A stretch of DNA of 53,530 bases from an uncultured Christiangramia sp. GTDB taxonomy: Bacteria; Bacteroidota; Bacteroidia; Flavobacteriales; Flavobacteriaceae. The first letter of the stretch is position 1; every line of letters starts with the position of its first letter. Position numbers and translations under genes: made by a program. Shown piece by piece: positions 5,058 through 53,530 of this stretch. Under the pieces are notes generated by a model, which saw only the letters and a program-made list of their open reading frames with translations, did no database searches and was not told where the DNA came from. Where the stretch lies: the NCBI RefSeq assembly GCF_913046405.1, contig NZ_CAJWRQ010000007.1, positions 1 to 53,530 of the forward strand, written 5' to 3'.

Positions 5058-5248
5058 AATTTTGTCTTATTAACCAACTAAAACTTAAATTATGAAAAAA
5101 AATTCAATTCTGGTAACCACTCCAGAAATGCGGTGCAAAAGTCTCATATTTCTCCCTTACCCGCAACTCTTAAATAAACTTTAACTAAACGTTTACCAGA
5201 TTGTCATTTATTTCATTTTTCCACTTAAATTTTAGCAGATATTTAATC

Positions 5249-6391: not shown

Positions 6392-6493
6392 TGTTGTTAT
6401 TTTAAAGGATGTAAATATGATATAAACTTGAAATCAAATTTCAAAATATTACCACATCGCTCTATCCTGTGCTGATAAATCTTCTTTCATCTC

Positions 6494-7660: not shown

Positions 7661-7832
7661 GTGATTATATTTTAAAATCGATCAAAAATGAATTCATTTC
7701 TTGAAAGATTGTTATTATTTCCAGTATTTATTTCGATTTACACAAATATCAAGAAAATTTACCGAAACAATCTTAAATCTAGTGTAAAAACCGGTTACGA
7801 AAACGATAAAGTAATTATAGAAAATTCGTCGC

Positions 7833-10061
7833 TTAGAACCAGAATCCCAGGCTAAAAAACCAGTAACTTTCTTTATTTTCAGGTGAATAGGAATATTTTG
7901 CTTCCAGTGGTCCCATAAATGTTTCAATTCCGTAACCAATTCCGTAGCCATTATAATCGGGCATGCTCAACCAGTTTCCGGTGGTGTACAGATCATCTTC
8001 CACATTGGCAATATTGGCGCTGGCGATAATATGGTTCTTTCTGAAAAGCTCATAGTCGAACTCCAGTTGCGCCTTTATATAACTATCTGCGGAAAGGCTT
8101 AAGAAATCATAACCCAGGAAAGGTTTGAAATTATTGATAAAATCATTCCCGTAACCACCCAGAAAGAAATCCAGCACCTGGCTCTCATCGTTCCCTATCT
8201 TAAAACCGGTTCCTGTACTTATTCGCGTCGTGAATTTGGGAAAAGGCTGGATAGCATAACCTAAACTTCCCTTAGCGATCGAGAACTCCGAAAAATCATT
8301 ATTATAATCTGAAGAATACAGGTAAATATGAAAGTCTCCATCAAAACGAACTCCTTTGGTGGGGAAATATTTATTGTCGTATGAATCGAATTTCACGTAT
8401 CCAAAGCCGCCGGCATAATGGTCATTTGCCAGAACCAGTTCCTGACTTTGGTTAATCGCATCGTTAAACGTATTACTGCTATACTTTAAATATTTGTGTT
8501 CCACTCCTACACCTATTGAAAATACCTGCTGAAATAGTGATTCCACGTAGATCTGATTGGTGAAATCTCTCACCGTAACTTCCAGCTCTCTTATATCCTG
8601 AAATTCACTCAGACCTTCAGTATCTCTGATCCCGTCTAAGAGCAAGCCTTTATCAAAGGTGTTGTAACGAGAATTTATTCCGAAGCTCCAGTAAAAACCT
8701 TTATCCAGGTAATAGTTAAAATTGTAACGCAGGTTATCCCCCACGATAAGGTCCAGAGAAGCCACATCATTAGTAAATAGTAAACTCTTACGGGTAAGAT
8801 TCACCAGTGCCCCACTTTTATAAAGTTCATCATAATGCAATCCCAGTCGCAATAGCATTTTGTTTTCACTTTCCTCGATCTGCATGGCAAGTACATAATT
8901 GCCATTTTCATCTTCGGGTATTAGCTGGTAATTAATTCTCTCAAAGTTACCGGTCGCAGAAAGGTTGTTAATTCCAATATTCAGATCCTCGAAGTTGTAA
9001 GTTTCTTCGTAATCAAGTTTTAATTTACCCTGCACATAAGCTCTGGGATAGGTGTTATTTCCTTCTACTGAAAGTGCACTAATATTAAAACTATCGATCT
9101 TTGGAACCGGTTTCCGAATTAATAAGCTATCATCTGGATCACTTAGCAATTTGAGTTTTTCCAGCATATTGTTTGCGGCCACAGCTCCTGAATCTATGAT
9201 CGCCTGTCCTTTGTCAAAAGCCATGACCGAGAAAGAATTTACATTCGGTTTAATGTAAATATCGGTTTTTGGAGCTTTCTCCTTCATATCATTGATCGTG
9301 CGAAAATTTGAGATCTGACTCATAATTTCGAACACACTTCGTAATTTATCTCTTTTGACAAGACTGTCCTGCACATCCACACCAATGATCACCTCAGCAC
9401 CACGACGCCTTAATTCTTCGATCGGGTAATTATTAGCAACCCCACCGTCTGTGAGCAATTGTCCGTCAATTTTTATGGGACTTAGAAGTGTTGGTATCGC
9501 GCCACTTGCTGAAATTGCTTTAGCCAGTGATCCACTATCCAGAATTACTTCGTCCCCGGTTTCTACATTGGCCGCAATACAGAAAAACGGGATGGGTAAT
9601 TCACTAAAATCTTCCACATCGCTTACATGAATGGTAAGTCTGGAAAGTAAATTGTAAATATTCTGACCTTTAAAAAGTCCGCTAGGAAATGAAATATCAA
9701 AATTGTCAAAAGGTAGCGTGATCGCGTATTTTTCTGAATCTTCCTTTTCATAGAAAGTTTTAGCCCGCCTTGGCAGGTTATCCTGAATTAGAATATCAAA
9801 CTGTGTGGTTCTAAAAATAGAATCAAGTTCGCTGGCAGAATAGCCGGAAGCGTAGAGTCCGCCAATAATTGCTCCCATACTGGTACCTCCAATATAATCG
9901 ATCTTGATGCCTTGCTCTTCAAGGGTTTTTAGCACACCTATATGGGCAAGACCTTTGGCACCACCTCCGCTTAATACAAGTCCAACCTTTGGCCTATCCT
10001 CTTCCTGGCAAATTGCTCCAAAGGAAATGAGTAGACTAAGGATGAAAAGATATTTACGCAT
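7833..10061 (-). CDS. patatin-like phospholipase with POTRA and Omp85-type beta-barrel (type Vd autotransporter-like)
   Basis: A 742-residue predicted outer-membrane lipase. Signal peptide 1-18; patatin domain about 24-215 with oxyanion loop SGGGAKG (31-37), nucleophile Ser61 in GTSMG and dyad Asp205 in TDGGVANN. A POTRA-like segment follows (about 325-400, FNISALSVEGNNTYP), then a beta-barrel to the C-terminus, which ends in aromatic FWF as outer-membrane barrels do. This order matches type Vd secretion (PlpD-like), where the patatin domain passes through its own barrel. The start overlaps the end of uvrC by 8 bp. Confidence 0.92.
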   Translation of the reverse strand: MRKYLFILSLLISFGAICQEEDRPKVGLVLSGGGAKGLAHIGVLKTLEEQGIKIDYIGGTSMGAIIGGLYASGYSASELDSIFRTTQFDILIQDNLPRRAKTFYEKEDSEKYAITLPFDNFDISFPSGLFKGQNIYNLLSRLTIHVSDVEDFSELPIPFFCIAANVETGDEVILDSGSLAKAISASGAIPTLLSPIKIDGQLLTDGGVANNYPIEELRRRGAEVIIGVDVQDSLVKRDKLRSVFEIMSQISNFRTINDMKEKAPKTDIYIKPNVNSFSVMAFDKGQAIIDSGAVAANNMLEKLKLLSDPDDSLLIRKPVPKIDSFNISALSVEGNNTYPRAYVQGKLKLDYEETYNFEDLNIGINNLSATGNFERINYQLIPEDENGNYVLAMQIEESENKMLLRLGLHYDELYKSGALVNLTRKSLLFTNDVASLDLIVGDNLRYNFNYYLDKGFYWSFGINSRYNTFDKGLLLDGIRDTEGLSEFQDIRELEVTVRDFTNQIYVESLFQQVFSIGVGVEHKYLKYSSNTFNDAINQSQELVLANDHYAGGFGYVKFDSYDNKYFPTKGVRFDGDFHIYLYSSDYNNDFSEFSIAKGSLGYAIQPFPKFTTRISTGTGFKIGNDESQVLDFFLGGYGNDFINNFKPFLGYDFLSLSADSYIKAQLEFDYELFRKNHIIASANIANVEDDLYTTGNWLSMPDYNGYGIGYGIETFMGPLEAKYSYSPENKESYWFFSLGFWF

Positions 10062-11853
10062 TCTCTTTATGATAAAATTGATAAACGATGGTCGCCCGGG
10101 AAGCCCCGATCACGTCTGCAAGTTCCTTTTCGCTTGCCTCCTTCACTCTTTTAAGAGATCTGAAATTCTTCAGGAGTTCAATGACTGTTTTTTCGCCAAT
10201 TCCAGCAATAGACTCAAGTTCGGTATTTAACGCGGTTTTACTTCTTTTATTCCGGTGAAAAGTAATTCCGAAGCGATGCGCCTCATTTCGTAACTGCTGA
10301 ATGATCTTTAAAGATTCAGATTTTTTGTCCAGATATAAAGGTATGGAATCGCCGGGATAGTAGATCTCTTCCAGTCGTTTCGCGATTCCTATGATGGCGA
10401 TCTTTCCGCGTAGACCTAAGGTATCCAGTGCCTTCACACCGCTGGAAAGCTGCCCTTTTCCACCATCCACAATAATTAATTGTGGAAGCGGCTCATCTTC
10501 ATTAAGCAGTCTTCTATAACGTCTAAAAACCACTTCTTCCATAGAAGCAAAATCGTCTGGTCCTTCTACGGTTTTGATATTGAATTTTCGATAATCCTTT
10601 TTGCTTGGTTTTCCATCCTTGAATACCACGCAGGCGGCAACCGGATTGGTTCCCTGTATATTAGAGTTATCGAAACATTCTATATGTCGAGGTTCCTCGC
10701 TAAGTCTAAGATCTTCTTTCATTTGCGCCATAATTCGGTTTACATGACGGTCTGGATCTATGATCTTCATTTGCTTAAATCTTTCCTGCCTGAAATATTT
10801 CGCATTTCGCTGGGACAACTCTACGATCTTCTTTTTATCGCCCAGTTTTGGAACCGTGATCTTCAGGTCTTCACCAACATCGACCTTAAAAGGCACATAG
10901 ATCTCTGTAGATTTCGAGCTGAAGCGCTGCCTGATCTCCACAATGGCCAGTTCCAGCAATTCCAGGTCGCTTTCATCCAGCTTCTTTTTCATCTCGATGG
11001 TATGGGAGCGTATGATCGCACCGTGAGATAACTGCAGAAAATTCACATAGCCATAACCCTCATCACTTACTACGGAAAAAACATCTACATTATTAATTCG
11101 TGGATTTACCACGGTAGACTTGGATTGATAGTTCTCCAGGACATCGATCTTGATCTTGATACGCTGAGCATCTTCAAATTCCATATTCTCAGCATGCTCT
11201 TTCATTTGATTTCGAAAACGCTGAAGGGAATCCTTGAAATTACCTTTTACGATCTGGCGAATCGCTTCAATATTTCGATTATATTCTTCTTCAGGCTGCA
11301 AAGCTTCACAGGGTCCTTCACAATTACCAAGATGATATTCCAGGCAGACCTTATATTTCTCATTCCGAATCTTTTCTTCGGAAAGATCATAATTACAGGT
11401 TCTTAACTTGTATAATCCTTTGATTAGATCGAGTAGTGTGTTTACTGTTTTAAAGCTTGTAAAAGGCCCATAATATTCGCTGCCATCACGAACCAGTTTT
11501 CTGGTAGGAAAAACTCGTGGAAACCGCTCATTTTTAATACAGATCCAGGGATAGGTTTTGTCATCCTTCAGCATCACATTAAACCTAGGCTGATGTTTCT
11601 TGATCAAATTATTTTCCAGAAGCAATGCATCGGTTTCTGAAGCAACCACGATATGTTTTATTTCATGGATCTTCTTGACCATGACTCCAATTCGATGGCT
11701 GTCATGTCGCTTGGTGAAATAAGAAGTCACCCTTTTCTTCAAATTCTTGGCTTTCCCTACGTATAGGATCTTTCCATTCTTATCGAAATATTGATAAACA
11801 CCCGGGCTATTGGGCAAGGTTTTTAATTGTACGTCCAGAGCTGGCTTTTCCAT
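10054..11853 (-). CDS. uvrC: excinuclease ABC subunit C
   Basis: Nuclease making both incisions in UvrABC nucleotide-excision repair. With the start chosen it has 599 residues: GIY-YIG domain at the N-terminus (GVYQYF 18-23, YVGKAKN 31-37), a Cys-rich patch (CNYDL..CLEYHLGNCEGPC), UVR helix pair around 200-235, the RNase H-like UvrC domain (FDNSNIQGTNPVA, VDGGKGQLSSG) and a helix-hairpin-helix tail (SIAGIGEKTVIELL). A start six codons upstream (11871) is open, but the ATG at 11853 has a GAGG just before it and fits homologues. Confidence 0.95.
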   Translation of the reverse strand: MEKPALDVQLKTLPNSPGVYQYFDKNGKILYVGKAKNLKKRVTSYFTKRHDSHRIGVMVKKIHEIKHIVVASETDALLLENNLIKKHQPRFNVMLKDDKTYPWICIKNERFPRVFPTRKLVRDGSEYYGPFTSFKTVNTLLDLIKGLYKLRTCNYDLSEEKIRNEKYKVCLEYHLGNCEGPCEALQPEEEYNRNIEAIRQIVKGNFKDSLQRFRNQMKEHAENMEFEDAQRIKIKIDVLENYQSKSTVVNPRINNVDVFSVVSDEGYGYVNFLQLSHGAIIRSHTIEMKKKLDESDLELLELAIVEIRQRFSSKSTEIYVPFKVDVGEDLKITVPKLGDKKKIVELSQRNAKYFRQERFKQMKIIDPDRHVNRIMAQMKEDLRLSEEPRHIECFDNSNIQGTNPVAACVVFKDGKPSKKDYRKFNIKTVEGPDDFASMEEVVFRRYRRLLNEDEPLPQLIIVDGGKGQLSSGVKALDTLGLRGKIAIIGIAKRLEEIYYPGDSIPLYLDKKSESLKIIQQLRNEAHRFGITFHRNKRSKTALNTELESIAGIGEKTVIELLKNFRSLKRVKEASEKELADVIGASRATIVYQFYHKENA

Positions 11854-12006
11854 TACCTCAAAAATAAACATTAAAATAAGCTCACTAAACCTTTTTTGGC
11901 TTCCGAAGTAAATTTTAAGAATATCGCTCTACGTATCAAAATATTGCATAATCTTTCGTTTACTTTGCACAGCTCCCAGACTTAGGGCATTTTAGTATAT
12001 TGCATT

Positions 12007-12426
12007 ATGGAGAAGATTGTGATCGGAAGATTTGACAAGGCAGATTTTCCTGCTTTACACCTCAACGACATCGCCATTAAAATGGATACAGGAGCTTACA
12101 GTTCCTCGATACATTGCGAGAATATCAAAGAAGTTGATGATGAACTGCATTGTACCTTTCTGGATGCTGAACATCCTTTATATAATGGCAGAGCTTTTAT
12201 TTTTAAAGATTACGACATTGTATTTGTAAGAAGTAGTAACGGGATCATCCAGAAACGATATCTGGTGCGTACCAATATTAAACTCTTCGGAAAAGTATTT
12301 AAAATATCCTTATCGCTTTCAGACAGACAGGAAATGCGATATCCGGTATTGATTGGAAGAAAGTTTTTAACCAAAAAATTTATAGTGGACACCGAGCTTG
12401 TCGATGTCTCGTTTAACCTGAAGTAA
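12007..12426 (+). CDS. rimB: RimB-like ATP-dependent zinc protease / retropepsin-fold protein
   Basis: A 139-residue protein of the family annotated 'ATP-dependent zinc protease' or RimK/LysX-associated (PF05618). The retropepsin-type triad Asp27-Thr28-Gly29 lies in [13 protein letters not shown]. In Pseudomonas, RimB is reported to trim glutamates added by RimK. It is the first gene of a plus-strand run and sits 1 bp before rimK, divergent from uvrC across a 153-bp gap. Confidence 0.85.
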
Positions 12427-12427
12427 C

Positions 12428-13300
12428 ATGAAGATTAGAATATTATCCAGAAATCCCCGACTCTATTCTACAAGCCGACTGGTAGAAGCCGCTAAAAAGC
12501 GCAACCACGAGGTAGAAGTGATCGATCCTACAAAGTGTGACCTGGTTATAGAAAAGAAGAAACCAAGTATCTACTACAAAAACCATTTTCTGGATGATAC
12601 TGATGCGGTAATTCCAAGAATTGGAGCTTCGGTAACTTTTTACGGTACTGCCGTAGTAAGACAATTTGAAATGATGGGAACATTTACCACGACTGAATCT
12701 CAGGCACTGGTAAGAAGCAGGGACAAATTAAGAAGCTTACAGATATTATCGAGAGCAAGACTTGGTTTACCTAAAACTGTGTTTACCAACTATTCGAAAG
12801 ATGTGACTGAAATTCTGGATCATGTTGGTGGTGCCCCGGTAATCATCAAATTACTGGAAGGTACTCAGGGATTAGGAGTCGTACTGGCAGAAACTCAAAA
12901 TGCTGCAGAATCTGTAATTGAAGCCTTTAACGGGCTACAGGCAAGAGTAATCGTACAGGAATTCATCAAAGAAGCTGGTGGAGCAGATATCCGGGCTTTT
13001 GTGGTAGATGGACAGGTTGTAGGTGCGATGAAAAGACAGGGGAAAGAAGGTGAGTTTAGATCGAATCTTCACCGTGGAGGATCAGCATCCATCATTCAAT
13101 TAACAGATGAAGAGGAAAACGCAGCCATCAAAGCAGCGAAAGCAATGGCTCTTGGTGTAGCAGGTGTGGATATGCTGCAAAGTAGTCGTGGTCCTCTTAT
13201 ACTTGAAGTGAACAGCTCTCCTGGTCTGGAAGGAATTGAAGCAGCTACCGGAAAGGATATTGCCAAAACGATCATTAGATATATTGAACGAAACGTCTAA
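12428..13300 (+). CDS. rimK: RimK family alpha-L-glutamate ligase (ATP-grasp)
   Basis: ATP-grasp ligase; the family adds glutamate to the C-terminus of ribosomal protein S6 or makes poly-glutamate. 290 residues. N-terminal RimK pre-ATP-grasp domain (1-95, [15 protein letters not shown]), ATP-grasp with [11 protein letters not shown] (141-151), [15 protein letters not shown] (178-192) and magnesium site [13 protein letters not shown] (259-271). The one-base gap to rimB and three-base gap to the next gene point to tight coupling. The real substrate here is not shown by the sequence. Confidence 0.93.
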
Positions 13301-13303
13301 CAT

Positions 13304-14299
13304 ATGCCGCGAATAGACAAGAACAATGTTCTTGAGATCCTGGGAGAAAAAGTACTGCCGGGTAAAAGAGCGACCATAAATTTTAATATGGCCAAGCTAT
13401 ACACTACCACTTCTGTGGAGGTGCCGGTCATTATTGAACGTTCCAAAAAACCGGGTCCAGTTGTGCTTCTAACTGCTGGAATTCATGGTGACGAGATCAA
13501 TGGAGTTGAGATCGTAAGACAGATCATTTCAAAAGGTATTAACAAACCTAAAGTGGGTACCGTCATTTGCATCCCGATCGTCAACATCTTCGGATTTTTG
13601 AATATGGCTCGTGAATTTCCTGATGGACGTGATCTTAATCGAGTATTCCCCGGAACAAAAAATGGGTCGCTGGCGAGTAGATTTGCCTATCAATTCGTAA
13701 AAAAAATACTACCAATAGCTGATTTTTGCCTGGACTTCCATACCGGAGGTGCTGCCAGGTTCAATGCACCACAAATACGGGTTAAAAAAGGCGACGAACA
13801 AAGTATTAAATATGCCAAGATCTTCAACGCTCCTTTTACCATACATTCCAAAACGATCACAAAATCCTACCGGGAAACCTGTTCAAAATTAGGAATTCCC
13901 GTTTTGCTGTTCGAAGGTGGAAAATCCCTGGACTCCAATAAAGATGTAGCAAAAGTGGGTGTAGACGGCGCTATGCGTATTCTTAGTCATCTGGAAATGC
14001 TGAATGATAAATTTGAATATCCAGAGGTAAAAAGAGATACTGTTCTTATCGAGAATAGTTCCTGGTTACGGGCAAAATATAGTGGTCTTCTACATGTCAA
14101 GATCCCGTGTGGCAAACATGTTGAAAAAGGTGAGTATATCGCTACTATTACAGATCCCTACGGTAAGTTTAGCCATAAGATCAAAAGCAATAGTGAAGGT
14201 TACGTGATTAATATTAATGAATCCCCGATCGTTTATCAGGGTGATGCCATCTTTCACATATCCATGCAATCAAAAGTGCTTTTTGATGAAGAAGTCTGA
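13304..14299 (+). CDS. succinylglutamate desuccinylase/aspartoacylase family protein
   Basis: Zinc-dependent M14-fold amidohydrolase, 331 residues. Metal and catalytic positions: His61 and Glu64 (AGIHGDEING), His146 (LDFHTGG) and likely catalytic Glu204 (LLFEGGKS). DLNRVFPG (110-117) is the substrate-binding motif of the family. The C-terminal 70 residues form the beta-rich biotinyl-like extension. Members act on N-acyl amino acids or related amides; placement after rimB-rimK suggests it acts on the same glutamylated product, which is inference. Confidence 0.88.
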   Translation: MPRIDKNNVLEILGEKVLPGKRATINFNMAKLYTTTSVEVPVIIERSKKPGPVVLLTAGIHGDEINGVEIVRQIISKGINKPKVGTVICIPIVNIFGFLNMAREFPDGRDLNRVFPGTKNGSLASRFAYQFVKKILPIADFCLDFHTGGAARFNAPQIRVKKGDEQSIKYAKIFNAPFTIHSKTITKSYRETCSKLGIPVLLFEGGKSLDSNKDVAKVGVDGAMRILSHLEMLNDKFEYPEVKRDTVLIENSSWLRAKYSGLLHVKIPCGKHVEKGEYIATITDPYGKFSHKIKSNSEGYVININESPIVYQGDAIFHISMQSKVLFDEEV

Positions 14300-14858
14300 A
14301 ATCAGGAAGAAATTTAAGCTTTTACGCAGTCAGCTTGCTCAGGAAGATATCGAGAGCATGAGCATTGATATTGCGAATAGATGTCTTGAACTGAGCATCT
14401 GGGATGTACGATATTTTCATATTTTCCTGAGTATTGCTGAACAAAAGGAAGTAAATACAGAGTATTTGCTACATGTACTGCAGGGCAAAGACAAAGAGAT
14501 CATTGTTCCCAAGTCTGATTTCGAAACTGGTGAGATGATCAATTACTTACTTACCGATCAAACCAGGATTGTTAAGAATCCATGGAATATTCCAGAACCG
14601 GTAGATGGAATCCAGATTGCTGCACAACAACTGGACGCTGTATTTATTCCTCTTCTGGCACTGGACAAAAGCGGACACAGAGTTGGCTACGGAAAAGGTT
14701 TTTACGATCGGTTTTTAAGTCGCTGCAAAAAAGACATCATTAAAATTGGAGTTTCATTCTATGGACCCGTAGAAGAGATCAGTGATGTGTACACCAGTGA
14801 CATCCCACTGGACTATTGCGTTACCCCAAACAGGATCTACGATTTCAGGAAAAAATAA
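14286..14858 (+). CDS. 5-formyltetrahydrofolate cyclo-ligase
   Basis: ATP-dependent conversion of 5-formyl-THF to 5,10-methenyl-THF (EC 6.3.3.2). The 190-residue form starting at 14286 (MKKSEIRKKF) is chosen; an in-frame ATG at 14217 lies deep in the upstream gene and adds a non-homologous 23-residue leader. The family signature GYGKGFYDRF is at 134-143 and the N-terminal KxxxRKKF basic helix is normal. It overlaps the previous gene by 14 bp, so it is part of the rim transcript. Confidence 0.93.
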   Translation: MKKSEIRKKFKLLRSQLAQEDIESMSIDIANRCLELSIWDVRYFHIFLSIAEQKEVNTEYLLHVLQGKDKEIIVPKSDFETGEMINYLLTDQTRIVKNPWNIPEPVDGIQIAAQQLDAVFIPLLALDKSGHRVGYGKGFYDRFLSRCKKDIIKIGVSFYGPVEEISDVYTSDIPLDYCVTPNRIYDFRKK

Positions 14859-14911
14859 TTTTTGCTACAACTAGCTTAAAAATGTACATTTAACATTGCC
14901 AAAAGACCCTA

Positions 14912-16366
14912 ATGCTTAGCGACCTTCAGTTAAACAGCATACTTCAGGATTTCGATATCGCCTATTGGAAGATCAATCTCTTTTCCAAGGAGATTAGCTG
15001 GTCAGACCATTTCGGAAATCTTGTGGGTGATCCTAAGATCGAAGAAGATCGTTTTGAATTTTTTATCAATCATATTCTACATCCCGATTATCGTTACGAT
15101 TTCAGAATCCATTTTGAAAAACTTATCGCTGATCATGAAACCTTCAAATTTGAGATCAAGCTGAAACTTGGGAATGGAAAGTATCGCTGGTTTGAATGCA
15201 AGAATCTAAAAAGCAAGGATAATTCCTTCAGGGAAACAGCGGTACTCCTTTTTGTAAATATCCACCAGACCAAGCGGGACCAGTACACGATCGAAGAAAA
15301 CTTCTTCTACTATCGCGAGACTGCAGAAATGACTTCTACCGGAGGCTGGTATGTAGACACGATCAATAAGAATATTTACTGGGATGATGTAACTAAGAAA
15401 ATTCTCGATTGCCCCCGGGATTTTCAACCTGCATATGAAAAGCGGGAAAGCTTCTATGCTGAAGAACATCATAACAGAATGAAATCTGCCTTTGATAAAT
15501 GTGAGAACTTCGGGATTCCTTTTAAACTGGAATTGAAAATGATCTCCTTTCAGAATAGAGAATATTGGGTGCGATTAACAGGAAAACCAGTATATGATGA
15601 CGATCAGCAGGTGATTGGAATAAGAGGAGTTTTACAGAACATCGATGAAAACAAAAACAATGAACTGAATCTTCAGAACTCGTTGGATATCATTGCTTCG
15701 CAAAATTCCCGACTCTTCAACTTTGCCCACATCGTTTCCCATCATTTAAGATCTCATAGTAGCAATTTGAGTCTTATCGTGGAATTGCTACGAGAGGCTA
15801 AAACCGATAGAGATAAACTGGATCTACTGGCCAATGTTGATGATGTTGCTGGCAACCTGGATTCTGCGATTTCAAGACTTAATAATATTGTTAGTGTTCA
15901 AAGTTCGCTAAAGAAAGAGAGGGTTAAAATCAAATTTGAAGAGGCTCTGGAGATCGTTCTGGCATCGATATCATCACTCATTAATCGGGAAAATGCAAAA
16001 ATCGTCGCTGAGTTTCAGGATTTGAAAGAAATTAGCTATATACCTGAGTATCTTGAAAGTATTTTATTAAATTTAATCACGAATGCGATTAGATATAAAC
16101 AACCTGGTCGTAAACCGGTCATCTTTATCCAGACATATATTGAGAACGAAAAAGAATTTCTCGAGATAAGTGACAATGGAATGGGGATCGATCTTGACGA
16201 ATATGGTGATAAAATGTTTGGAATGTACCGAACCTTTCATCATACCAGTCAGGAAGCAAAAGGTATTGGTTTATTCATTACCAAAAACCAGGTGGAAGCT
16301 CTAGGGGGAGCCATATCTGTTAGTAGTACTCTAGACATAGGGACTACGTTTAAAATAAAATTCTAG
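14912..16366 (+). CDS. PAS domain sensor histidine kinase
   Basis: A 484-residue soluble kinase: no transmembrane segment or signal peptide. Two PAS-like regions (about 12-120 and 135-247, each with PAC-type ends), then a dimerisation helix with phosphoacceptor His277 (HIVSHHLRSHSSNL) and a HATPase domain: N-box Asn391 (LITNAIRY), G1 DNGMG (421-425), G2 GIGL (451-454). The signal is unknown. It is followed 9 bp later by a lone receiver protein, the probable partner. Confidence 0.92.
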   Translation: MLSDLQLNSILQDFDIAYWKINLFSKEISWSDHFGNLVGDPKIEEDRFEFFINHILHPDYRYDFRIHFEKLIADHETFKFEIKLKLGNGKYRWFECKNLKSKDNSFRETAVLLFVNIHQTKRDQYTIEENFFYYRETAEMTSTGGWYVDTINKNIYWDDVTKKILDCPRDFQPAYEKRESFYAEEHHNRMKSAFDKCENFGIPFKLELKMISFQNREYWVRLTGKPVYDDDQQVIGIRGVLQNIDENKNNELNLQNSLDIIASQNSRLFNFAHIVSHHLRSHSSNLSLIVELLREAKTDRDKLDLLANVDDVAGNLDSAISRLNNIVSVQSSLKKERVKIKFEEALEIVLASISSLINRENAKIVAEFQDLKEISYIPEYLESILLNLITNAIRYKQPGRKPVIFIQTYIENEKEFLEISDNGMGIDLDEYGDKMFGMYRTFHHTSQEAKGIGLFITKNQVEALGGAISVSSTLDIGTTFKIKF

Positions 16367-16375
16367 ATCTATACA

Positions 16376-16792
16376 ATGGGGCAGAAAGTAGAACTAGCGT
16401 GTATCATCGATGATGATAAGATATACGTGAACTTGGTTAAAAAGATCATAGAGATCAAAAAATTATCAGAGAATCTTCTTATCTACAAAAATGGTAAGGA
16501 AGCACTGGATTATTTTAAAAATTCCATGTCTTCTGTGACCCATGAGAATTTGCTTCCAGATATTATATTCCTGGATCTTAACATGCCTGTAATGGATGGC
16601 TGGGAATTTTTAAATGAATTCCTGAAGATCAAAAACAACCTGAATAAAAAGATCACTCTTTACGTGGTTAGCTCTTCAATAGACCCTCGGGATCTGGAGA
16701 GAGTGAAATCATTTAATATGGTTACAGATTATCTAATTAAACCTATTGAACTTAAAAAGTTCGAAAAGATCTTCGATAAAACTGCTGCCTGA
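16376..16792 (+). CDS. single-domain response regulator
   Basis: A receiver domain with no output domain, 138 residues. Acidic pocket Asp12-Asp14, phosphoacceptor Asp67 (IIFLDLNMPVMDGWEF), conserved Ser100 and Lys122 (YLIKPI). It likely takes the phosphate from the kinase just upstream and acts through protein contacts rather than DNA binding. It ends 2 bp from the end of convergent lspA. Confidence 0.94.
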   Translation: MGQKVELACIIDDDKIYVNLVKKIIEIKKLSENLLIYKNGKEALDYFKNSMSSVTHENLLPDIIFLDLNMPVMDGWEFLNEFLKIKNNLNKKITLYVVSSSIDPRDLERVKSFNMVTDYLIKPIELKKFEKIFDKTAA

Positions 16793-16794
16793 TA

Positions 16795-17400
16795 TTATTC
16801 TTCTTCCTTCGGAAATGCTTTTTTATTAAATATCAAAAGTAAAGCTACACCAACGCTAATTGCAGAATCTGCTATATTGAATACGGGTTCAAAGAATGTG
16901 AAGTACTCTCCACCCCAGAATGGGATCCAACCTGGCAAATAACCTTTCCACAGAGGGAAATAAAGCATGTCTACCACCTTCCCGTAGAATATCGAACTAT
17001 AGCCACCGGCTTCAGGTAAAAAACTTGCTACATGACCGTAGCTATCGTCAAAGATGATTCCGTAGAAAACAGAATCAATGATATTTCCAAAGGCGCCGGC
17101 AAAGATAAGCGCGATAGAAACGATCAATACTCTAGATCCATTCTTTCTAACTGCATCCCATAACCAGTATCCAATTCCAACTATAGCAGCCAGTCTGAAA
17201 AGCGTTAGGGCAAGCTTGCCATATTCTCCGGGAATCTTGGTTCCCCAGGCCATTCCTTCGTTCTCTACGAAAAGAATACTAAACCAGTCGAAAACCTCAA
17301 TCTCTTCACCCAGTGCAAAATGTGTTTTGATATAAATTTTGGAGATCTGATCTATTAATAAGATCAGGAAAATGATGATTCCAGCTTTTTTAAGCGACAT
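16795..17400 (-). CDS. lspA: lipoprotein signal peptidase (signal peptidase II)
   Basis: Inner-membrane aspartyl protease that removes signal peptides from prolipoproteins. 201 residues with four hydrophobic segments. Catalytic aspartates are Asp109 (GNIIDSVFYG) and Asp178 (FNIADSAISVG). It is about 40 residues longer than E. coli LspA because of a loop near 115-165, which is usual in Bacteroidota. The window encodes several lipoproteins that would need it. Confidence 0.95.
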   Translation of the reverse strand: MSLKKAGIIIFLILLIDQISKIYIKTHFALGEEIEVFDWFSILFVENEGMAWGTKIPGEYGKLALTLFRLAAIVGIGYWLWDAVRKNGSRVLIVSIALIFAGAFGNIIDSVFYGIIFDDSYGHVASFLPEAGGYSSIFYGKVVDMLYFPLWKGYLPGWIPFWGGEYFTFFEPVFNIADSAISVGVALLLIFNKKAFPKEEE

Positions 17401-17438
17401 GGTTGATTTTTAATTGAAACGCACCAAAAATACTAATA

Positions 17439-18062
17439 TTATTTAGTTTTTAGCACCAATATATTGCCGTCTATGGACTTAAGTTTTATAGGATTTCTAC
17501 CACTGAAATGTTCCGGGATCTCCACCTTGCCATTCCTGCTTACCGCCTCTACAAGACCAGAGGCTGTTTCAACCCGAATATTACCTTCGTAAGTATTAAT
17601 TGTAGCATTTCCAGCAAATTCTCTCAGGTTGCAATAGCCATCTTTTAGATTCGCTGTTAGCTGGCTGAAGGAACCAAATGCAATTAAGGAAGCAATATTG
17701 GAGTCTACAGAAATTTCAAGATCCTTTGGAATCTCCAGTTCCAGCTCTAAAGAAAAGACCTTATGTGCACTCAATTTATCAAAGCCTCCGGTAAGTTCCT
17801 GGGGATAGCTTGTTTCTATGCTCAAATTGCCATCATCGACTTTTGTTTGAACACGAATCTGATTAAAGTATTCACCTTCAGAGTGAGTAATGAGCCTGAT
17901 CCTGTCTGTATTGGTAGCGGTAATAGTAATTTTGAAAACCTCGTTGGTAAGTATATCGATGGATTCAATCCCGGCAGCATTGAAGATCTCACGGGTGTCC
18001 CGCTGGACATGCAAAGACATGTTCGTACAGAAAAGAATCAGCAGACAAAATTTCTTCAACAT
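17439..18062 (-). CDS. exported hypothetical protein, DUF4097-like beta-rich
   Basis: A 207-residue protein with an N-terminal signal peptide (MLKKFCLLILFCTNMSLHV) and a body of short repeating beta strands (about 90-200) like the adhesin-type DUF4097/DUF2807 folds; the assignment is by pattern only. GAAGGAAG just before the ATG is a good ribosome-binding site. It starts 19 bp from the terminator that ends the ileS-dksA unit, so it needs its own promoter or read-through. 38 bp before lspA. Confidence 0.7.
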   Translation of the reverse strand: MLKKFCLLILFCTNMSLHVQRDTREIFNAAGIESIDILTNEVFKITITATNTDRIRLITHSEGEYFNQIRVQTKVDDGNLSIETSYPQELTGGFDKLSAHKVFSLELELEIPKDLEISVDSNIASLIAFGSFSQLTANLKDGYCNLREFAGNATINTYEGNIRVETASGLVEAVSRNGKVEIPEHFSGRNPIKLKSIDGNILVLKTK

Positions 18063-18080
18063 CTTCCTTCAGTAAAAATA

Positions 18081-18108
18081 AAACGTCCGGAAATTGTTCC
18101 GGACGTTT
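18081..18108 (-). terminator. terminator after the dksA-like gene
   Basis: A 12-bp perfect stem (18081-18092 with 18097-18108) with a 4-base loop, followed on the minus strand by TATTTTTA. It separates ileS-dksA from the exported protein gene. Confidence 0.85.
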
Positions 18109-18119
18109 GTTTGTATTGC

Positions 18120-18503
18120 TTAGCGCTGCATATTTTTTGCTTCAATGCTTAAAGTTGCATGTGGCACCAATAACAGTCTTTCTTTGGCAATAAGCTTCCC
18201 GGTAACTCTGCAAATACCGTACGTCTTGTTTTCGATCCTGTTCAGGGCGTTCTTAAGATCCCGAATGAACTTCTCCTGCCTGATGGCTAGTTGAGAGTTA
18301 GCCTCCTTGCTCATAGTTTCACTTCCTTCCTCAAAAGCTTTGAATGTTGGGGAGGTATCATCTGTACCATTATTTCCATCATTCTTATAAGCAGACTGGT
18401 AGTTGGACAACTGCTCCTGTGCTTTTTCGATCTTGGATTTGATCAAAGCCTTGAACTCGGCTAGATCTGCATCGCTGTAGCGTTCTTTTACGTCTGTAGA
18501 CAT
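18120..18503 (-). CDS. TraR/DksA family transcriptional regulator lacking the zinc finger
   Basis: RNA polymerase secondary-channel regulator of the DksA family, 127 residues. N-terminal coiled coil (about 10-90) and a C-terminal globular part with YGICRVTGKLI and RLLLVPHATLSIEAK. Only one of the four zinc-finger cysteines remains (Cys98), as in other flavobacterial homologues I recall. DksA proteins modulate rRNA and stress promoters with ppGpp; whether this form responds likewise is not shown. It lies 3 bp after ileS. Confidence 0.9.
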   Translation of the reverse strand: MSTDVKERYSDADLAEFKALIKSKIEKAQEQLSNYQSAYKNDGNNGTDDTSPTFKAFEEGSETMSKEANSQLAIRQEKFIRDLKNALNRIENKTYGICRVTGKLIAKERLLLVPHATLSIEAKNMQR

Positions 18504-18506
18504 GGC

Positions 18507-21500
18507 TTAATGTTTTTTAATGAACATTTTAGTGGCGACATCATCAAATTCAACATCTGCACCTTCTTCCACCACCTCTGCAAAATCGAGGTTTGCAGTT
18601 AATGTTTCGGTTTTAATATAGGTTATATTATCGTTCACGGCATCCTCGATCATGCCGTCCTTTTGTAGGGTAACATCTATTATATCAGTTACTTCAAAGC
18701 CTGAATCTTTTCGGAGGTTCTGGATCCTGTTTACCAGTTCCCTGGCAACACCTTCCCTTTTCAATTCCTCACTGATACTAACATCCAGAGCCACAGTTAG
18801 ATTACCACTGCTGGCTACTAACCATCCTTCTATATCCTGAGAGCTTATTTCTACCTCAGCGAGTGACAAATTAACCATTTTTTCGTTAATGTTTAATTCG
18901 ATCTCTCCTTCTCTCTCGATCTTTGCGATGTCTTCTGCGGAAAAATTATTCACTGCATTGACAATCAGCTTTATATCCTTACCAAATCTTGGGCCAAGAA
19001 CTCGGAAGTTAGGTTTTACCTGCTTTACCAGAAGTCCTGAAGCATCATCTATAAGCTCGATCTCCTTCACATTTACTTCAGACTTTATGAGGTCTGCAAC
19101 CGCCTCAATTTCATGCTTTTGTGCATCATCAAGTACCGGAATCATTACTCTTTGAAGAGGTTGACGCACTTTGATCATTTCCTTCTTCCGTAGTGAAAGC
19201 ACCAGAGAAGAGATCGTCTGTGCTTTTTCCATTTTGTGCTCCAGGGATTTATCAACAAATTCTGGTTGATAAACCGGGAACTCAGCAATATGTATAGATT
19301 CTGAAGTATCCTTCCCAGTAGCATTATTCAGATCTCTGAAGAGTCTGTCCATAAAGAATGGCGCTACCGGTGCTCCCAGCTTTGCCACAGTCTCCATACA
19401 GGTATATAATGTCTGGTAAGCTGAAATTTTATCCTGCTCGTAATCACCTTTCCAGAAACGTCTTCTGCTTAAACGCACGAACCAGTTACTAAGGTTCTCC
19501 TGAACAAATTCTGAAATAGCACGAGTTGCTTTTGTTGGCTCATATTCAGCATAGAACTTATCTACCTTCTGAATAAGTGTGTGCAGTTCTGATAAAATCC
19601 AGCGATCTATTTCAGGTCTTTTGTCAAGATCTACGTCTGCTTCAGCATACGTAAAACCGTCTATGTTTGCGTACAGTGTAAAGAACGAATAGGTGTTGTA
19701 TAAGGTTCCGAAGAATTTACGCTGAACCTCTCCAATACCTTCAATATCAAATTTTAAATTATCCCATGGATTTGCATTAGAGATCATATACCATCTCGTA
19801 GCATCTGGTCCGTAAACAGCCAGAGTCTCAAATGGGTCTGCTGCATTTCCAAGACGTTTGGACATTTTCTGCCCATTCTTGTCTAGTACAAGTCCGTTAG
19901 AAACAACGTTCTTATAGGCAACATCATCAAAGATCATGGTTGCGATCGCATGCAGCGTATAGAACCATCCACGGGTCTGGTCTACACCTTCAGCAATAAA
20001 ATCTGCCTTACGCCATTCATCTTCGACTTTCTCCTTATTCTCGAATGGATAATGCCACTGTGAGTAAGGCATGGAACCGGAATCAAACCAAACATCGATA
20101 AGGTCTGCTTCACGTTTCATAGGTTTTCCTGAATCTGAAACCAGGGTAATCGTGTCTACCACATTCTTATGAAGATCTACTTTTTCGTAGTTCTCTTCAC
20201 TCATGTCACCAGCTACAAAATCTGAAAATATATCTTTTTCCAGCACTCCGGCCTCAACAGCTTTCGCCATCTCCTCCTTTAATTGCGCTACAGATCCAAT
20301 CACCTTCACATCCTTGCCATCATCGGTTCGCCAGATAGGTAAAGGAATTCCCCAATACCGGCTACGGCTAAGGTTCCAGTCATTTGCATTGGCCAGCCAG
20401 TTTCCAAATCTTCCTTCACCAGTAGACTTTGGCTTCCAGTTGATGTTCTGGTTAAGCTCATGCATTCTGTCCTTGAACTCGGTTACTTTGATAAACCATG
20501 AGTCCAGTGGGTAATATAAAATTGGCTTATCTGTTCTCCAGCAATTTGGGTAGCTGTGAACATATTTTTCAACTTTAAAAGCCCTGTTCTCTTCTTTTAA
20601 TTTAATGGCCAGCTCAACATCTACAGACTTCTCAGGTGCCTGCCCTTCATCATAATATTCATTTTTTACATACTTCCCGGCAAATTCACCTAACTCAGGT
20701 CTGAATTTCCCCTGAAGATCCACCAATGGCACCAAATTACCGTTCTCATCCTTCACAAGAAGTGGCGGTACTTCTGGAGAAGCCTGTTTCGCTACCAAGG
20801 CATCATCTGCCCCAAAAGTTGGAGAAGTGTGTACGATTCCCGTACCATCTTCAGTGGTCACGAAATCTCCCGCGATCACACGGAAAGCATTCTCTGGATT
20901 GTCGTAAGGTTGCGCATAATCCAAAAGCTGCTCGTATTTAATTTCAACAAGGTCTTTTCCTGTAAAACCTTCGCCTATTAAATACGGGATCTTTTTGTCG
21001 CCCTCAGCATAAGCTTTAAGCTCTTCTTCCGAAGAAACCTTAGTGAATTTTTTATCAAATTGTTTTTCAGCCAGATCTTTCGCCACGATGATAGTGATTG
21101 GCTCAAACGTATATTGATTATATGTTTTTACGCTTACATACTGGATCTTAGGTCCAACAGTAAGTGCAGTGTTCGATGGTAAAGTCCAGGGTGTGGTAGT
21201 CCATGCGATCAGGAAAGCTCCTTCCAGGCCAGCGCCAACCGGTGCAGCAGAGGAGTCTGTGATCTTAAACATCGCCGTTACCGTAGTATCAGTAACATCC
21301 TGGTAAGTTCCCGGCTGATTAAGCTCATGAGAACTTAAACCTGTTCCAGCTTTTGGAGAATACGGCTGAATGGTATAGCCCTTGTAAATAAGATCTTTCT
21401 TATATATTTCTGAAAGCAACCACCATACAGTTTCCATGTATTTGGACTTGTATGTGATATATGGATCTGTCATATCGACCCAATAACCCATTTTTTTGGT

Positions 21501-21908
21501 AAGATCGTTCCAGACATCGGTATAACGCATGACGGCATTTTTACAAGCCTCGTTATATTTCTTAACACTAATTTTTGTTCCAATATCCTCTTTGGTGATC
21601 CCAAGCTCTTTTTCCACGCCAAGTTCGATAGGAAGACCATGAGTATCCCAACCTGCTTTACGTTTAACCTGAAACCCTTTTTGAGTTTTGTAACGACAAA
21701 AAATATCTTTGATAGAACGGGCCATCACATGGTGAATACCAGGTAAGCCGTTTGCAGATGGAGGTCCTTCGAAAAAGATGTAAGATTCCTTGCCTTCGCG
21801 AGAACTTATACTCTTTTCGAAAATATCATTCTCTTCCCAGTAATTAAGAATTTCTTCGGCCACTTTAGGCAGGTCAAGACCTTTATATTCAGGGAATTTT
21901 GCACTCAT
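18507..21908 (-). CDS. ileS: isoleucine--tRNA ligase, eukaryote-like (IleS2) type
   Basis: Class Ia aminoacyl-tRNA synthetase, 1133 residues. The HIGH-type motif is GIHH (57-60) after GPPSANGLP, and KMSKR is at 681-685. The editing domain lies between (about 200-430, with WTTTPWTLPSNTAL at 236-249). TRGWFYTLHAIA (645-656) in place of the HRGWF form and the absence of the C-terminal CxxC zinc knuckle put it in the eukaryote-like IleS2 group, known for mupirocin tolerance. That is typical of Bacteroidota chromosomal enzymes rather than a sign of recent transfer. Confidence 0.95.
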   Translation of the reverse strand: MSAKFPEYKGLDLPKVAEEILNYWEENDIFEKSISSREGKESYIFFEGPPSANGLPGIHHVMARSIKDIFCRYKTQKGFQVKRKAGWDTHGLPIELGVEKELGITKEDIGTKISVKKYNEACKNAVMRYTDVWNDLTKKMGYWVDMTDPYITYKSKYMETVWWLLSEIYKKDLIYKGYTIQPYSPKAGTGLSSHELNQPGTYQDVTDTTVTAMFKITDSSAAPVGAGLEGAFLIAWTTTPWTLPSNTALTVGPKIQYVSVKTYNQYTFEPITIIVAKDLAEKQFDKKFTKVSSEEELKAYAEGDKKIPYLIGEGFTGKDLVEIKYEQLLDYAQPYDNPENAFRVIAGDFVTTEDGTGIVHTSPTFGADDALVAKQASPEVPPLLVKDENGNLVPLVDLQGKFRPELGEFAGKYVKNEYYDEGQAPEKSVDVELAIKLKEENRAFKVEKYVHSYPNCWRTDKPILYYPLDSWFIKVTEFKDRMHELNQNINWKPKSTGEGRFGNWLANANDWNLSRSRYWGIPLPIWRTDDGKDVKVIGSVAQLKEEMAKAVEAGVLEKDIFSDFVAGDMSEENYEKVDLHKNVVDTITLVSDSGKPMKREADLIDVWFDSGSMPYSQWHYPFENKEKVEDEWRKADFIAEGVDQTRGWFYTLHAIATMIFDDVAYKNVVSNGLVLDKNGQKMSKRLGNAADPFETLAVYGPDATRWYMISNANPWDNLKFDIEGIGEVQRKFFGTLYNTYSFFTLYANIDGFTYAEADVDLDKRPEIDRWILSELHTLIQKVDKFYAEYEPTKATRAISEFVQENLSNWFVRLSRRRFWKGDYEQDKISAYQTLYTCMETVAKLGAPVAPFFMDRLFRDLNNATGKDTSESIHIAEFPVYQPEFVDKSLEHKMEKAQTISSLVLSLRKKEMIKVRQPLQRVMIPVLDDAQKHEIEAVADLIKSEVNVKEIELIDDASGLLVKQVKPNFRVLGPRFGKDIKLIVNAVNNFSAEDIAKIEREGEIELNINEKMVNLSLAEVEISSQDIEGWLVASSGNLTVALDVSISEELKREGVARELVNRIQNLRKDSGFEVTDIIDVTLQKDGMIEDAVNDNITYIKTETLTANLDFAEVVEEGADVEFDDVATKMFIKKH

Positions 21909-22032
21909 TTTCTCCTATTTTCAAATGATGTGCGAAAATAAGGATTTTTAACAAAAGATGATATGATTCCTCGCTAAAAAACGACCGCTTTTCAGCATCA
22001 GATAATTCTGAATTGGGAAAGTAATGAAGTTG

Positions 22033-24426
22033 CTAAAAATTGTATTTCAGGGCAATGATCAAATTTCTACCTGCCGCAGCAATTCCGGAAGAATAGGTAC
22101 GATAACGCTGATCTGTAATATTTTCCAGTGAAACAGTAGCCAGCCAATTTGGATTGAGCCTGTATTGTCCCGTTAGGTTGAGCGTATACCATGCCGGTGA
22201 ATATGGATTTCCATTGGCATCTGTTGCATATAAATAGGCTTTATCCTGCTCTCCCGGAGCCAGATCTTCAAAGTCAAATTCACCATTGTACTCTGCAAAT
22301 AGGTCAAGTTTTAGTTTTCGCTTGTTCCAGACCAGATGCGTACTGCCAAACATTGGTGCTGCATGTCTCAAGGGCACATATTCCCCACCATCATTTTCTT
22401 CTCCATAGGTATAGCTAAACTGAGAGTTCATACGCAAGGCAACCGAAAAATCTATTTCCAGTCCAGCTTCCAGTCCATAAACATAAGCGTTGGCAGCATT
22501 TTGTATGGCCTGTACACGACTAGGTTCGCCCTGGTAATCGATCTCGGTTACACCATCCAGATCATAATCTCTTCGAACCATCGCATCATCGAGGTACGTA
22601 TAATAAGCGGTTAGCCCAAGACGAAGATTATCGCTGAAATTGAAGTCGGCTCCAGCCTCTGTATTATAGGCATATTCCGACTTCAGGTTTGGATTTGGGA
22701 CGACAACAGACCCAGGTTCAGAATCAAATATTTTACCAATATCATCAATATTAGGAGCACGAAAAGCGGTAGAAAGTCCCAGTCGCCAGCCTACAAAGTG
22801 ATTTTGACGCCAGTTAAGTCCAAGACTTCCGGTAAGTGCCCCAGTACTGATATTTGCTTCCTCAAAAGGAAAATCATAGAAACGATCCTCAAATCTTGCG
22901 TTCACCAGGATATGGTTGTAGCGTAGTCCCGACTGTAACGAAAGGTCCTCACTTATTTTCCACTGGTAACTGGAATACATCGCCATGGATTGCCATTTTG
23001 AGTCATCTGGATACCTGCTTGCCGTATCTCCGGTTTCTCCATTCTGAATATTTCTGAAGGCTCCTTCGGAAGCAACCGAATTAAGTACATATTCGAAACC
23101 GTAGAACAACTTGCTCTCAGACAAAGACTTTTCGAAATCCAGATTTGCTGAATAAGCATCTACATTTTCTTCCGTAGAGAAAAGTAAAGGCTCTCCAAAA
23201 TCCCGATCATTTCTACTCTCACCAAAATACTGATAAGCACCTGTAAACTGAACTTTATCATAAAATTCTGAACGGCTACGGTGATTGATTTTCAAATTTC
23301 CAAGAAACCAGGTTTGCGGACCATAATACCATTCTGCAGCACGTAAAACACCATCTTGCTTGCGGTATAGTCTGTCAAACCTCGGAAAATCGGAAGTCTG
23401 GGAATAAACAATTCCTAGATTAAAATCCCAGTCTTTGGATGGCATATATTTCACCTTTTGCAAGAGGTTGATCTGGTCATATCCTGTTGGCTTTTGAACC
23501 AGCGGATCTGGATTCTCCACCATCACATCGATGCCGTTCTGCCTTTCAGCATAATCAGGTCGCAGATAGTCGTCTGGACCATGTTCTCCCATCTTAAGAT
23601 CTCCAAAATCTGAATAAGTGATCCCGGTTCTAAAAGCCCAGTTTTCACGTCCTACATTCACATCTGCATGTACGGTATTTTCGTTATTTGCCGTGGCAAA
23701 ACGAGTATATATAGAGCCTGAAACAGAAGAGTCACCGGTAAAACTAAAATCTGGCTGCAGTGTATAAAAATTCATCACCCCGCCAATAGCATCACTCCCA
23801 TAAACCATGGAACCAGGACCTAAAATCACTTCTGCTCTTTCAATCGCCAAAGGGTCTATATTAATCACATTTTGCAGGTTGCCACTTCTAAAAATTGCGG
23901 TGTTCATCCTTACGCCGTCAACAGAAATTAGCACACGATTGGTTGCAAAACCGCGGATCATAGGACTTCCCCCACCTAACTGACTTTTTTGCACAAATAC
24001 CTGACCGGTACTTTCTAACAGATCAGCGGAGGTTTGCGGACTATTCAGCAGTACGTCTTCTTTATCAATACTTACTATTTTCTGCGGAATTTCATCTTTC
24101 TGAAGCTGAAATTTTGCTACAGAAAGCACCACCTGATCCAGCTTATTCTGATCTTCCTGAAGATAAACAATCTGGTTTTTAATAGCTGACTTCTTAATTT
24201 TGAATACCTCGTGCGAGATATGTTGAAAAAAAAGTACTTCGGTACTATCGAATTTAGATATATCCGCACGACCTTCAAAATTGCTCAGGCTAGTTTTAGT
24301 CTTTTCAGCATTAAAAATCATGACATTGCTTAAAGGTTCTTCAGTAGCACTATCCAGCACAATAATATCTTGTGAAAACAAATTTATGTTGAAAAGAACA
24401 TAAGAGAGAAATACAAAAATTCGCAT
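22033..24426 (-). CDS. TonB-dependent receptor, hemoglobin/transferrin-type
   Basis: Outer-membrane active transporter, 797 residues. Signal peptide (1-18), a short carboxypeptidase-regulatory-like domain (about 19-95), plug (about 110-215) with GGGSPMIRGFATNRV and ILGPGSMVYGSDAIGG, then the 22-strand barrel ending in an aromatic residue (LIIALKYNF). The plug wording, especially SVDGVRMNTAIFRSGNLQN, is that of haem/hemoglobin-type receptors, so haem iron is the likely cargo, but not proven. Its ATG overlaps the recO stop by one base (TAATG), so it is cotranscribed with recO. Confidence 0.9.
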   Translation of the reverse strand: MRIFVFLSYVLFNINLFSQDIIVLDSATEEPLSNVMIFNAEKTKTSLSNFEGRADISKFDSTEVLFFQHISHEVFKIKKSAIKNQIVYLQEDQNKLDQVVLSVAKFQLQKDEIPQKIVSIDKEDVLLNSPQTSADLLESTGQVFVQKSQLGGGSPMIRGFATNRVLISVDGVRMNTAIFRSGNLQNVINIDPLAIERAEVILGPGSMVYGSDAIGGVMNFYTLQPDFSFTGDSSVSGSIYTRFATANNENTVHADVNVGRENWAFRTGITYSDFGDLKMGEHGPDDYLRPDYAERQNGIDVMVENPDPLVQKPTGYDQINLLQKVKYMPSKDWDFNLGIVYSQTSDFPRFDRLYRKQDGVLRAAEWYYGPQTWFLGNLKINHRSRSEFYDKVQFTGAYQYFGESRNDRDFGEPLLFSTEENVDAYSANLDFEKSLSESKLFYGFEYVLNSVASEGAFRNIQNGETGDTASRYPDDSKWQSMAMYSSYQWKISEDLSLQSGLRYNHILVNARFEDRFYDFPFEEANISTGALTGSLGLNWRQNHFVGWRLGLSTAFRAPNIDDIGKIFDSEPGSVVVPNPNLKSEYAYNTEAGADFNFSDNLRLGLTAYYTYLDDAMVRRDYDLDGVTEIDYQGEPSRVQAIQNAANAYVYGLEAGLEIDFSVALRMNSQFSYTYGEENDGGEYVPLRHAAPMFGSTHLVWNKRKLKLDLFAEYNGEFDFEDLAPGEQDKAYLYATDANGNPYSPAWYTLNLTGQYRLNPNWLATVSLENITDQRYRTYSSGIAAAGRNLIIALKYNF

Positions 24427-52211: not shown

Positions 52212-53225
52212 CTAATTCTTCAAGTGTTCCGCAAAAAAGCCCATCATCGCTTTATAAAGATCTAATCGATTTTCTTCTTTAGCAAAACCGTGACCCTCAT
52301 CGTATTTCACCATATAAGGCACTTCTACTCCTTTAGATCTAAGGGTCTCTACGATTTGATCGGCTTCGTTAATATTCACTCTAGGATCATTAGCCCCCTG
52401 AACCACAAACAACGGATTTTTGATTTCATCGACATGTAAGGCGGGCGAAATCTCGTCCATAACCTTTTTCTCTTCCGGAATGCCCGGATTATACCATATC
52501 TTATATAATAACTCCCGATACTTTTCCCAGTATGGCGGGATAGTTTCCATAAAAGTATTTAGGTTACTCACACCTACATAATCTACTCCGCAGGCATATT
52601 TTTCTGGTGTTTTTGTCATTCCGCGTAATACAGCATAACCACCATGACTGCCGCCATATATCGCTATGCGCTCTTTATCTACCCAACCTTGTTCAATTAC
52701 ATAATCTACGCCATCTTCCACATCGTCCATTGCTTTACGACCAATTTCTCCAAAGCCTGCTTTTAAAAATTCTTTTCCATAGCCTCCAGAAATTCTAAAG
52801 TTTACATTTAAGGTTGCATAGCCACGGCTGGCGAATAATTGCGCTTCTGGATTAAAGCCCCAGCTATCACGGATTCCCTGTGGACCGCCATGAGGATTTA
52901 CCACTAATGGCACTTGCATTCCTTCCTGATAGTTATGCGGCAAAGTAATATAACCGTGTAGCCTTAATCCATCCCGACTTTTAAAAGTGATAGGCTTCAT
53001 ACTCGCCATATCTTCTTCTTTTAGATGCGGTAATAATTTATAGAGTAAACTTACCTCATCAGCTTCTACATCATATAGGTAGTACTCTCCTACAATTTTA
53101 TCGCTGGTTACCGCAATCATATATTTGGATTCGTCATCTGTTCTACCTACGGTAAAAAACTGTTTATCTCCAAATTCCCTAAAATACTTACTAATATCAA
53201 GTTTATCATTTTTTGGAAAATACAT
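52212..53225 (-). CDS. S9 family (prolyl oligopeptidase) peptidase, 5' end missing
   Basis: Only the C-terminal catalytic half is present, 337 codons from the first in-window ATG. Alpha/beta-hydrolase triad Ser193 (GGSHGGY), Asp280 (GANDPRVN) and His312 (DEGHGF) are intact. Residues 1-75 are the last blade of the N-terminal beta-propeller, so some 300 residues and the real start are lost. The homologous text stops at about 53225, where an unrelated gene begins on the opposite strand. The ATG at 53223-53225 is almost surely not the native start. Confidence 0.85.
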   Translation of the reverse strand: MYFPKNDKLDISKYFREFGDKQFFTVGRTDDESKYMIAVTSDKIVGEYYLYDVEADEVSLLYKLLPHLKEEDMASMKPITFKSRDGLRLHGYITLPHNYQEGMQVPLVVNPHGGPQGIRDSWGFNPEAQLFASRGYATLNVNFRISGGYGKEFLKAGFGEIGRKAMDDVEDGVDYVIEQGWVDKERIAIYGGSHGGYAVLRGMTKTPEKYACGVDYVGVSNLNTFMETIPPYWEKYRELLYKIWYNPGIPEEKKVMDEISPALHVDEIKNPLFVVQGANDPRVNINEADQIVETLRSKGVEVPYMVKYDEGHGFAKEENRLDLYKAMMGFFAEHLKN

Positions 53226-53226
53226 T

Positions 53227-53530
53227 ATGGAAACAAGTGATACTTTTTGTGCACTCCCTTGGGTGCATCTCTCAACCAGACCAAATGGACATATGCGAGT
53301 ATGCTGTACAGCAAACGCATCTGGTGTTCAGAACCCAGACTCCCAAGATAAAGTAGAATCGGATATTGGCATTATTAAAAATGATGATGGTATGCCTTCT
53401 AATCTTGCTAATACATCCTTAGCTGAAGCTTGGAATAATGCTTATATGAGAGGTACACGTAAAGCAATGATGCGAGGTGAGAAACCTAAGAGTTGTATTA
53501 AGTGTTATAAAGAAGAGGATGCTGGTCATC
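53227..53530 (+). CDS. twitch/SPASM-type radical SAM protein, 3' end beyond the window
   Basis: 101 codons open to the window end, starting METSDTFCALPWVHLSTRPN. A Cys8, a Cys26-Cys27 pair (MRVCCTAN) and Cys90-x2-Cys93 (KSCIKCYKEED) form a SPASM/twitch-like auxiliary iron-sulphur module at the N-terminus. From memory this arrangement, with the radical SAM core following, is seen in proteins of marine phages and their metagenomic relatives. The radical SAM CxxxCxxC motif itself lies outside the window. Nothing flavobacterial surrounds it. Confidence 0.75.
   Translation, partial: METSDTFCALPWVHLSTRPNGHMRVCCTANASGVQNPDSQDKVESDIGIIKNDDGMPSNLANTSLAEAWNNAYMRGTRKAMMRGEKPKSCIKCYKEEDAGH

Follow-up and report, generated by a model that had tools for sequence, protein, structure and literature searches.

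A truncated S9 peptidase gene joined to a virus-like radical SAM fragment in a contig that is very probably a three-part assembly chimera

Introduction

Near the end of a contig assigned to an uncultured Christiangramia sp., a minus-strand gene of the S9 prolyl-oligopeptidase family is cut short, and a plus-strand reading frame of a different kind begins at almost the same position. The question is whether the two are native neighbours, whether virus-like DNA has been inserted into a flavobacterial gene, or whether the arrangement was created during assembly. The window, which is the whole stretch of 53,530 nucleotides that was analysed, corresponds to the entire contig C7 of genome G000 (2.9 Mb in 167 contigs; completeness 90.45, contamination 3.02). 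Position 53530 is taken as the contig end. The features of the window are as follows.

1-23732, no strand: Christiangramia-type segment, native to the bin (nucleotide identity to relatives G032 and G008; overlap with contig C75)
22033-24426, minus strand: TonB-dependent-receptor-like ORF from the ORF list, a hybrid of two genera that contains the switch zone
23733-23799, no strand: switch zone between two bacterial genera, within the TonB-receptor-like gene (identical runs to G008, G032 and Zunongwangia pacifica)
23800-53178, no strand: Zunongwangia-type segment (nucleotide identity to Z. pacifica compared with Christiangramia relatives)
52212-53178, minus strand: gene of the S9 prolyl-oligopeptidase family, represented by its C-terminal part and cut off on its 5' side by the junction (Pfam PF00326; alignment with Z. 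pacifica)
53179-53226, no strand: 48 bases that match neither side, probably the leader of a viral gene
53227-53530, plus strand: start of a viral radical SAM gene, of which 101 codons are present before the contig ends (IMG/VR matches; codon positions of the differences)

The GC content is 0.372 in the tail, 0.373 in the Zunongwangia part and 0.395 in the Christiangramia part; the tail is not set apart by GC.

The peptidase gene breaks off at 53178

The minus-strand ORF at 52212-53225 encodes the C-terminal portion of a peptidase of the S9 family (Pfam PF00326, E=1.2e-48). Its catalytic domain is nearly complete, with PF00326 positions 1-211 of 213 represented. The 5' part of the gene is absent beyond 53178, and the window does not hold an intact S9 peptidase gene with its full propeller and catalytic domain. 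A sequence-only reading of this DNA had described a truncated minus-strand peptidase gene meeting a foreign plus-strand frame, which holds, but it had placed the end of the peptidase homology at about 53225, whereas the homology ends 47 bases before that position, at 53178. Nucleotide matches to GTDB genomes stop at 53176-53178 in 24 of the 25 best alignments listed, the remaining one (L226) stopping at 53112. The closest match is the peptidase gene of Z. pacifica (L203), which is 90.9% identical at the nucleotide level up to 53178 and dissimilar thereafter, with 95% amino acid identity across ORF residues 16-337. In Z. pacifica, the S9 gene runs on upstream of the break, whereas the copy in the window is truncated there.

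The protein comparisons place the break at the same point. In close relatives, protein searches find no match to the initial 11-15 residues of the ORF. Genus-level protein matches start at ORF residue 12-14 in close relatives, and most of the closest GTDB relatives start at residue 16 (best 80 of 312 loci). None of these best 80 of 312 GTDB relatives starts before residue 5. Early starts, at residues 3-9, are seen in two of the 80 GTDB loci (68-69% identical) and in a few weak matches elsewhere. In the residues before the break, all 20 relatives listed (of 80 loci) exhibit the motif PVSxTYKK, and the window has MYFPKNDKLDIS at this position. A lineage-specific N-terminus was considered for the additional residues of the ORF and was rejected, as the 20 listed relatives (of 80) carry PVSxTYKK instead.

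The foreign sequence consequently is 53179-53530. It comprises 352 bases and not the 304 bp that had been assigned to the tail. The ATG at 53225 on the minus strand falls within this foreign sequence and is therefore not the native start. The head-to-head appearance, with two start codons within two bases of each other, and the near-zero gap are therefore accidental. That the two genes form a natural divergent pair with hardly any space between them is rejected for the same reason, the ATG of the peptidase frame being situated in foreign sequence.

The last 304 bases derive most likely from a virus

The plus-strand frame at 53227-53529 comprises 101 codons. The fragment matches the Pfam SPASM family (PF13186) with E=1.4e-5, which passes the curated cut-off, and has a weak match to PHROG 14086 'radical SAM' (E=0.0039). 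Relatives of the tail protein are encoded by all 108 of the 108 pattern-matched stretches of IMG/VR, and the four closest loci (L003-L006) share 94% amino acid identity with it over the entire fragment (best 80 of 108). At the nucleotide level, identity to the seven closest viral loci, the nearest relatives of the tail, is 86-88% from about the start codon onward. L003-L006 are identical to one another across the tail stretch and differ from the tail by 40 nucleotides, of which 33 fall at codon position 3, five at position 1 and two at position 2. With this codon-position bias, 53227-53529 is a conserved coding frame and not a chance one. The good coding frame read from the ATG at 53227 is thus confirmed, and the comparison of the tail with viral sequences, which had been suggested as a check, gave strong matches to IMG/VR viral contigs.

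The fragment exhibits the SPASM/Twitch-type N-terminal cysteine motif and the coding constraint of a viral radical SAM/SPASM protein. It comprises only the N-terminal cysteine-rich part, and the radical SAM core lies further along in the full-length viral protein. The full-length relative in L004 comprises 477 amino acids, with PF04055 at residues 144-299, and SPASM is not listed for it in Pfam at E 0.001. The CX3CX2C motif, read by eye, is present in this 477-residue relative and would fall beyond the contig end in the window.

L004 is the only viral locus of which the neighbours were annotated. The relative is preceded by two genes that match tail-fibre PHROGs, which bears out the earlier description of the gene as phage-like. 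It is followed by an opposite-strand ORF without matches and then by two further radical SAM-like genes, of which the final one does not reach the Pfam cut-off. Three radical SAM-like genes are thus found close together at 5001-9660 of L004, after tail-fibre-like genes. This cluster is possibly a virus-coded system for the modification of peptides or of tail fibres. PMC5332604 reports an uncultured marine T4-like viral genome with 12 radical SAM genes. L004, with three such genes within 4.7 kb, is similar in having several viral radical SAM genes together. In contrast to that genome, the window holds no more than the initial 101 codons of a gene of about 477, and the comparison with L004 is one of gene content.

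Among phage records, the full-length L004 protein has three matches of 24-27% identity, none of which covers 80%; they belong to two Vibrio phages and to a marine virus from an amplified single cell. The tail protein of the window has one match in these records, with E=0.5. Relatives of this gene are encoded by 108 IMG/VR stretches, against only three phage records with distant ones. The tail protein is found in one of 395 Flavobacteriales genomes searched, namely the window's own and there in a single copy. The source of the tail is most likely a virus.

The 48 bases at 53179-53226 show no match to the peptidase or to the leaders of the viral relatives examined. No exact match to a 23-mer from this stretch was found in viral or genome contigs, and a short-word search against 80 viral loci gave matches of at most 20 bases among the matches listed. 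The 48 bases are probably the leader of the parent virus's gene. An exact 26-mer search for the viral parent itself found nothing. A 21-mer led to four contigs, which were rejected as the viral parent, since this AT-rich word is all that they have in common with the window and they differ on both sides of it.

A second junction lies within a receptor-like gene

A second and larger junction, which the sequence-only reading missed, is located at about 23.73-23.80 kb. Positions 1-19999 align as one piece with G032 (94% nucleotide identity) and G008 (93%), and positions 19000-24111 align with G008 at 91%. Identity to Christiangramia relatives is approximately 89-94% per kb up to about 23.8 kb. Past this point, it is approximately 68-79% in the longer alignments, and short conserved pieces, for example the tRNA region, show higher values. 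Identity to Z. pacifica past 23.8 kb, calculated on covered bases, is 85-94% in most kb bins and 78-79% in two of them, and the closest Zunongwangia relative is about 90% identical to the segment. The Z. pacifica coverage has gaps (for example, 316 of 1000 bases are covered at 31-32 kb). The Z. pacifica pieces stop or resume near the ends of C17 (74194 bases), of C46 (20622 bases) and of a 306095-base L203 contig, as would be expected of one collinear stretch broken by assembly.

The position of the switch can be narrowed down by runs of identical bases. At 23733-23799, 67 bases are identical to G008 (66 in G032), and identity to both drops from 23800 onward. In Z. pacifica, a run of 26 bases at 23789-23814 and another of 32 bases at 23870-23901 match the window exactly. 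The 67-base run alone proves nothing, because another G008-identical run of 62 bases is present nearby, at 23597-23658. G007 shows no run of more than 26 bases in the switch region. The switch zone is situated inside the ORF at 22033-24426, which we take from its sequence to be TonB-dependent-receptor-like. This hybrid ORF is an unsafe basis for other findings.

Contigs from a de Bruijn graph overlap by the word size k, and 55 is a common k in SPAdes. The first 55 bases of the window (1-55) are exactly the final 55 bases of C75, which is itself collinear with G032 at 93% nucleotide identity. This overlap is the trace of an assembly with word size 55, and a word-sized switch at 23.73-23.80 kb is therefore plausible.

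Christiangramia-type counterparts are present elsewhere in the bin

The genus search covered 24 genomes, G000 included, and G000 alone has the block at 48.8-51.7 kb twice, on C7 and on C50; two of the other 23 have a second match to the block, of less than 200 bases. C50 shares 91-94% nucleotide identity with G032 over the 14.3 kb compared, and a search of G000 with the C-terminal part of the peptidase led on C50 to a peptidase frame that stays open over 660 codons. C50 thus carries the 48.8-53.2 kb block in its Christiangramia version, and the bin has this orthologue in addition to the foreign part. In addition, the pieces at 35.96-36.91 kb and 45.9-47.6 kb have counterparts of 73-78% identity in G000, on C8 and C52. 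As the bin has its own Christiangramia copies on C50, C8 and C52, the right part of C7 is extra.

No sequence was seen in G000 that would carry C7 on beyond 23.8 kb in Christiangramia-type form, although the same query brought out the corresponding sequence of the Christiangramia relatives at 75-76%. The counterpart of 25.1-26.6 kb, which is found in relatives, was likewise not seen in G000.

These data bear on whether the bacterial switch could be natural, i.e. whether a Christiangramia strain acquired about 29 kb of Zunongwangia DNA by recombination at the conserved receptor gene. Homologous recombination, too, would act in a conserved stretch such as the one that contains the switch, and the gene order across the switch is common to Christiangramia relatives. 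Nevertheless, such a transfer is very improbable, given the Christiangramia version of the last block that the bin also carries on C50, the lack of a double block in the other 23 genomes and the far end of the segment, which passes into virus-like sequence and not back to Christiangramia.

Origin of the contig

Adjacent parts of the contig align to different organisms, as in an inter-species chimera. The contig is very probably a three-part assembly chimera of Christiangramia-type, Zunongwangia-type and virus-like sequence. The comparisons show from what type of source each of the three parts comes, where the two breakpoints lie and that the bin has an orthologous block in duplicate. A metagenomic assembly chimera had already been the first choice of the sequence-only reading, and it is favoured here as well, with another inter-genus misjoin in the same contig. 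The junction between the peptidase and the radical SAM gene is almost certainly an artefact.

The assembler would have left the Christiangramia genome at the conserved stretch 23733-23799 in the TonB-receptor-like gene and gone on into a co-occurring Zunongwangia-like genome, plausibly where a word of about 55 bases, common to both genomes, was collapsed in the de Bruijn graph. At 53178, the sequence would then have been joined to 352 bases that are most likely viral and that end in the N-terminal part of the radical SAM gene. As no long word common to the peptidase and the virus is visible at 53178, this viral join may have come from a chimeric read or insert.

The case resembles the inter-reference misassemblies of short-read metagenome assembly that are counted per genome in PMC11261854, with SPAdes and megahit among the assemblers, in that a single contig has pieces aligning to more than one genome. 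It differs from them in having three sources, one of which is virus-like, and in being recognised in the assembled sequence.

A real insertion, in which a Zunongwangia-like bacterium has its S9 peptidase gene split by viral DNA or by a larger element that shows its edge here, would agree with a peptidase gene cut cleanly at a single place (53178) and with a viral gene that is intact from its start codon to the contig's limit. It is nevertheless highly unlikely. The L004 relative adjoins tail-fibre-like genes on a viral contig, none of the other 394 Flavobacteriales genomes, of 395 searched, yielded a relative of the tail gene, and the join lies 352 bases from the end of a contig that is chimeric elsewhere too. 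An integrated phage or mobile element would have its gene in bacterial chromosomes of the group, and the single occurrence among the 395 genomes is in the bin itself. The insertion or rearrangement by a phage-like element that had been offered as the other option finds no support in these searches. The more specific proposal that an L004-like virus, or a satellite with its radical SAM gene, truly inserted in the Zunongwangia-like peptidase gene is scarcely credible.

Significance

If an insertion were true, it would bear on DNA exchange between such viruses and flavobacteria, and an L004-like insertion would place such viral DNA in a bacterial chromosome, which would be unusual; nothing that was found supports insertion. 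The junction is not a biological feature. Its value is for quality control only, as a warning against trusting the contig. The stretch 23.8-53.53 kb, about 29.7 kb of a contig of 53.5 kb, should not be counted as part of the Christiangramia bin, and no biological meaning should be given to the hybrid receptor gene, the truncated peptidase or the virus-like tail.
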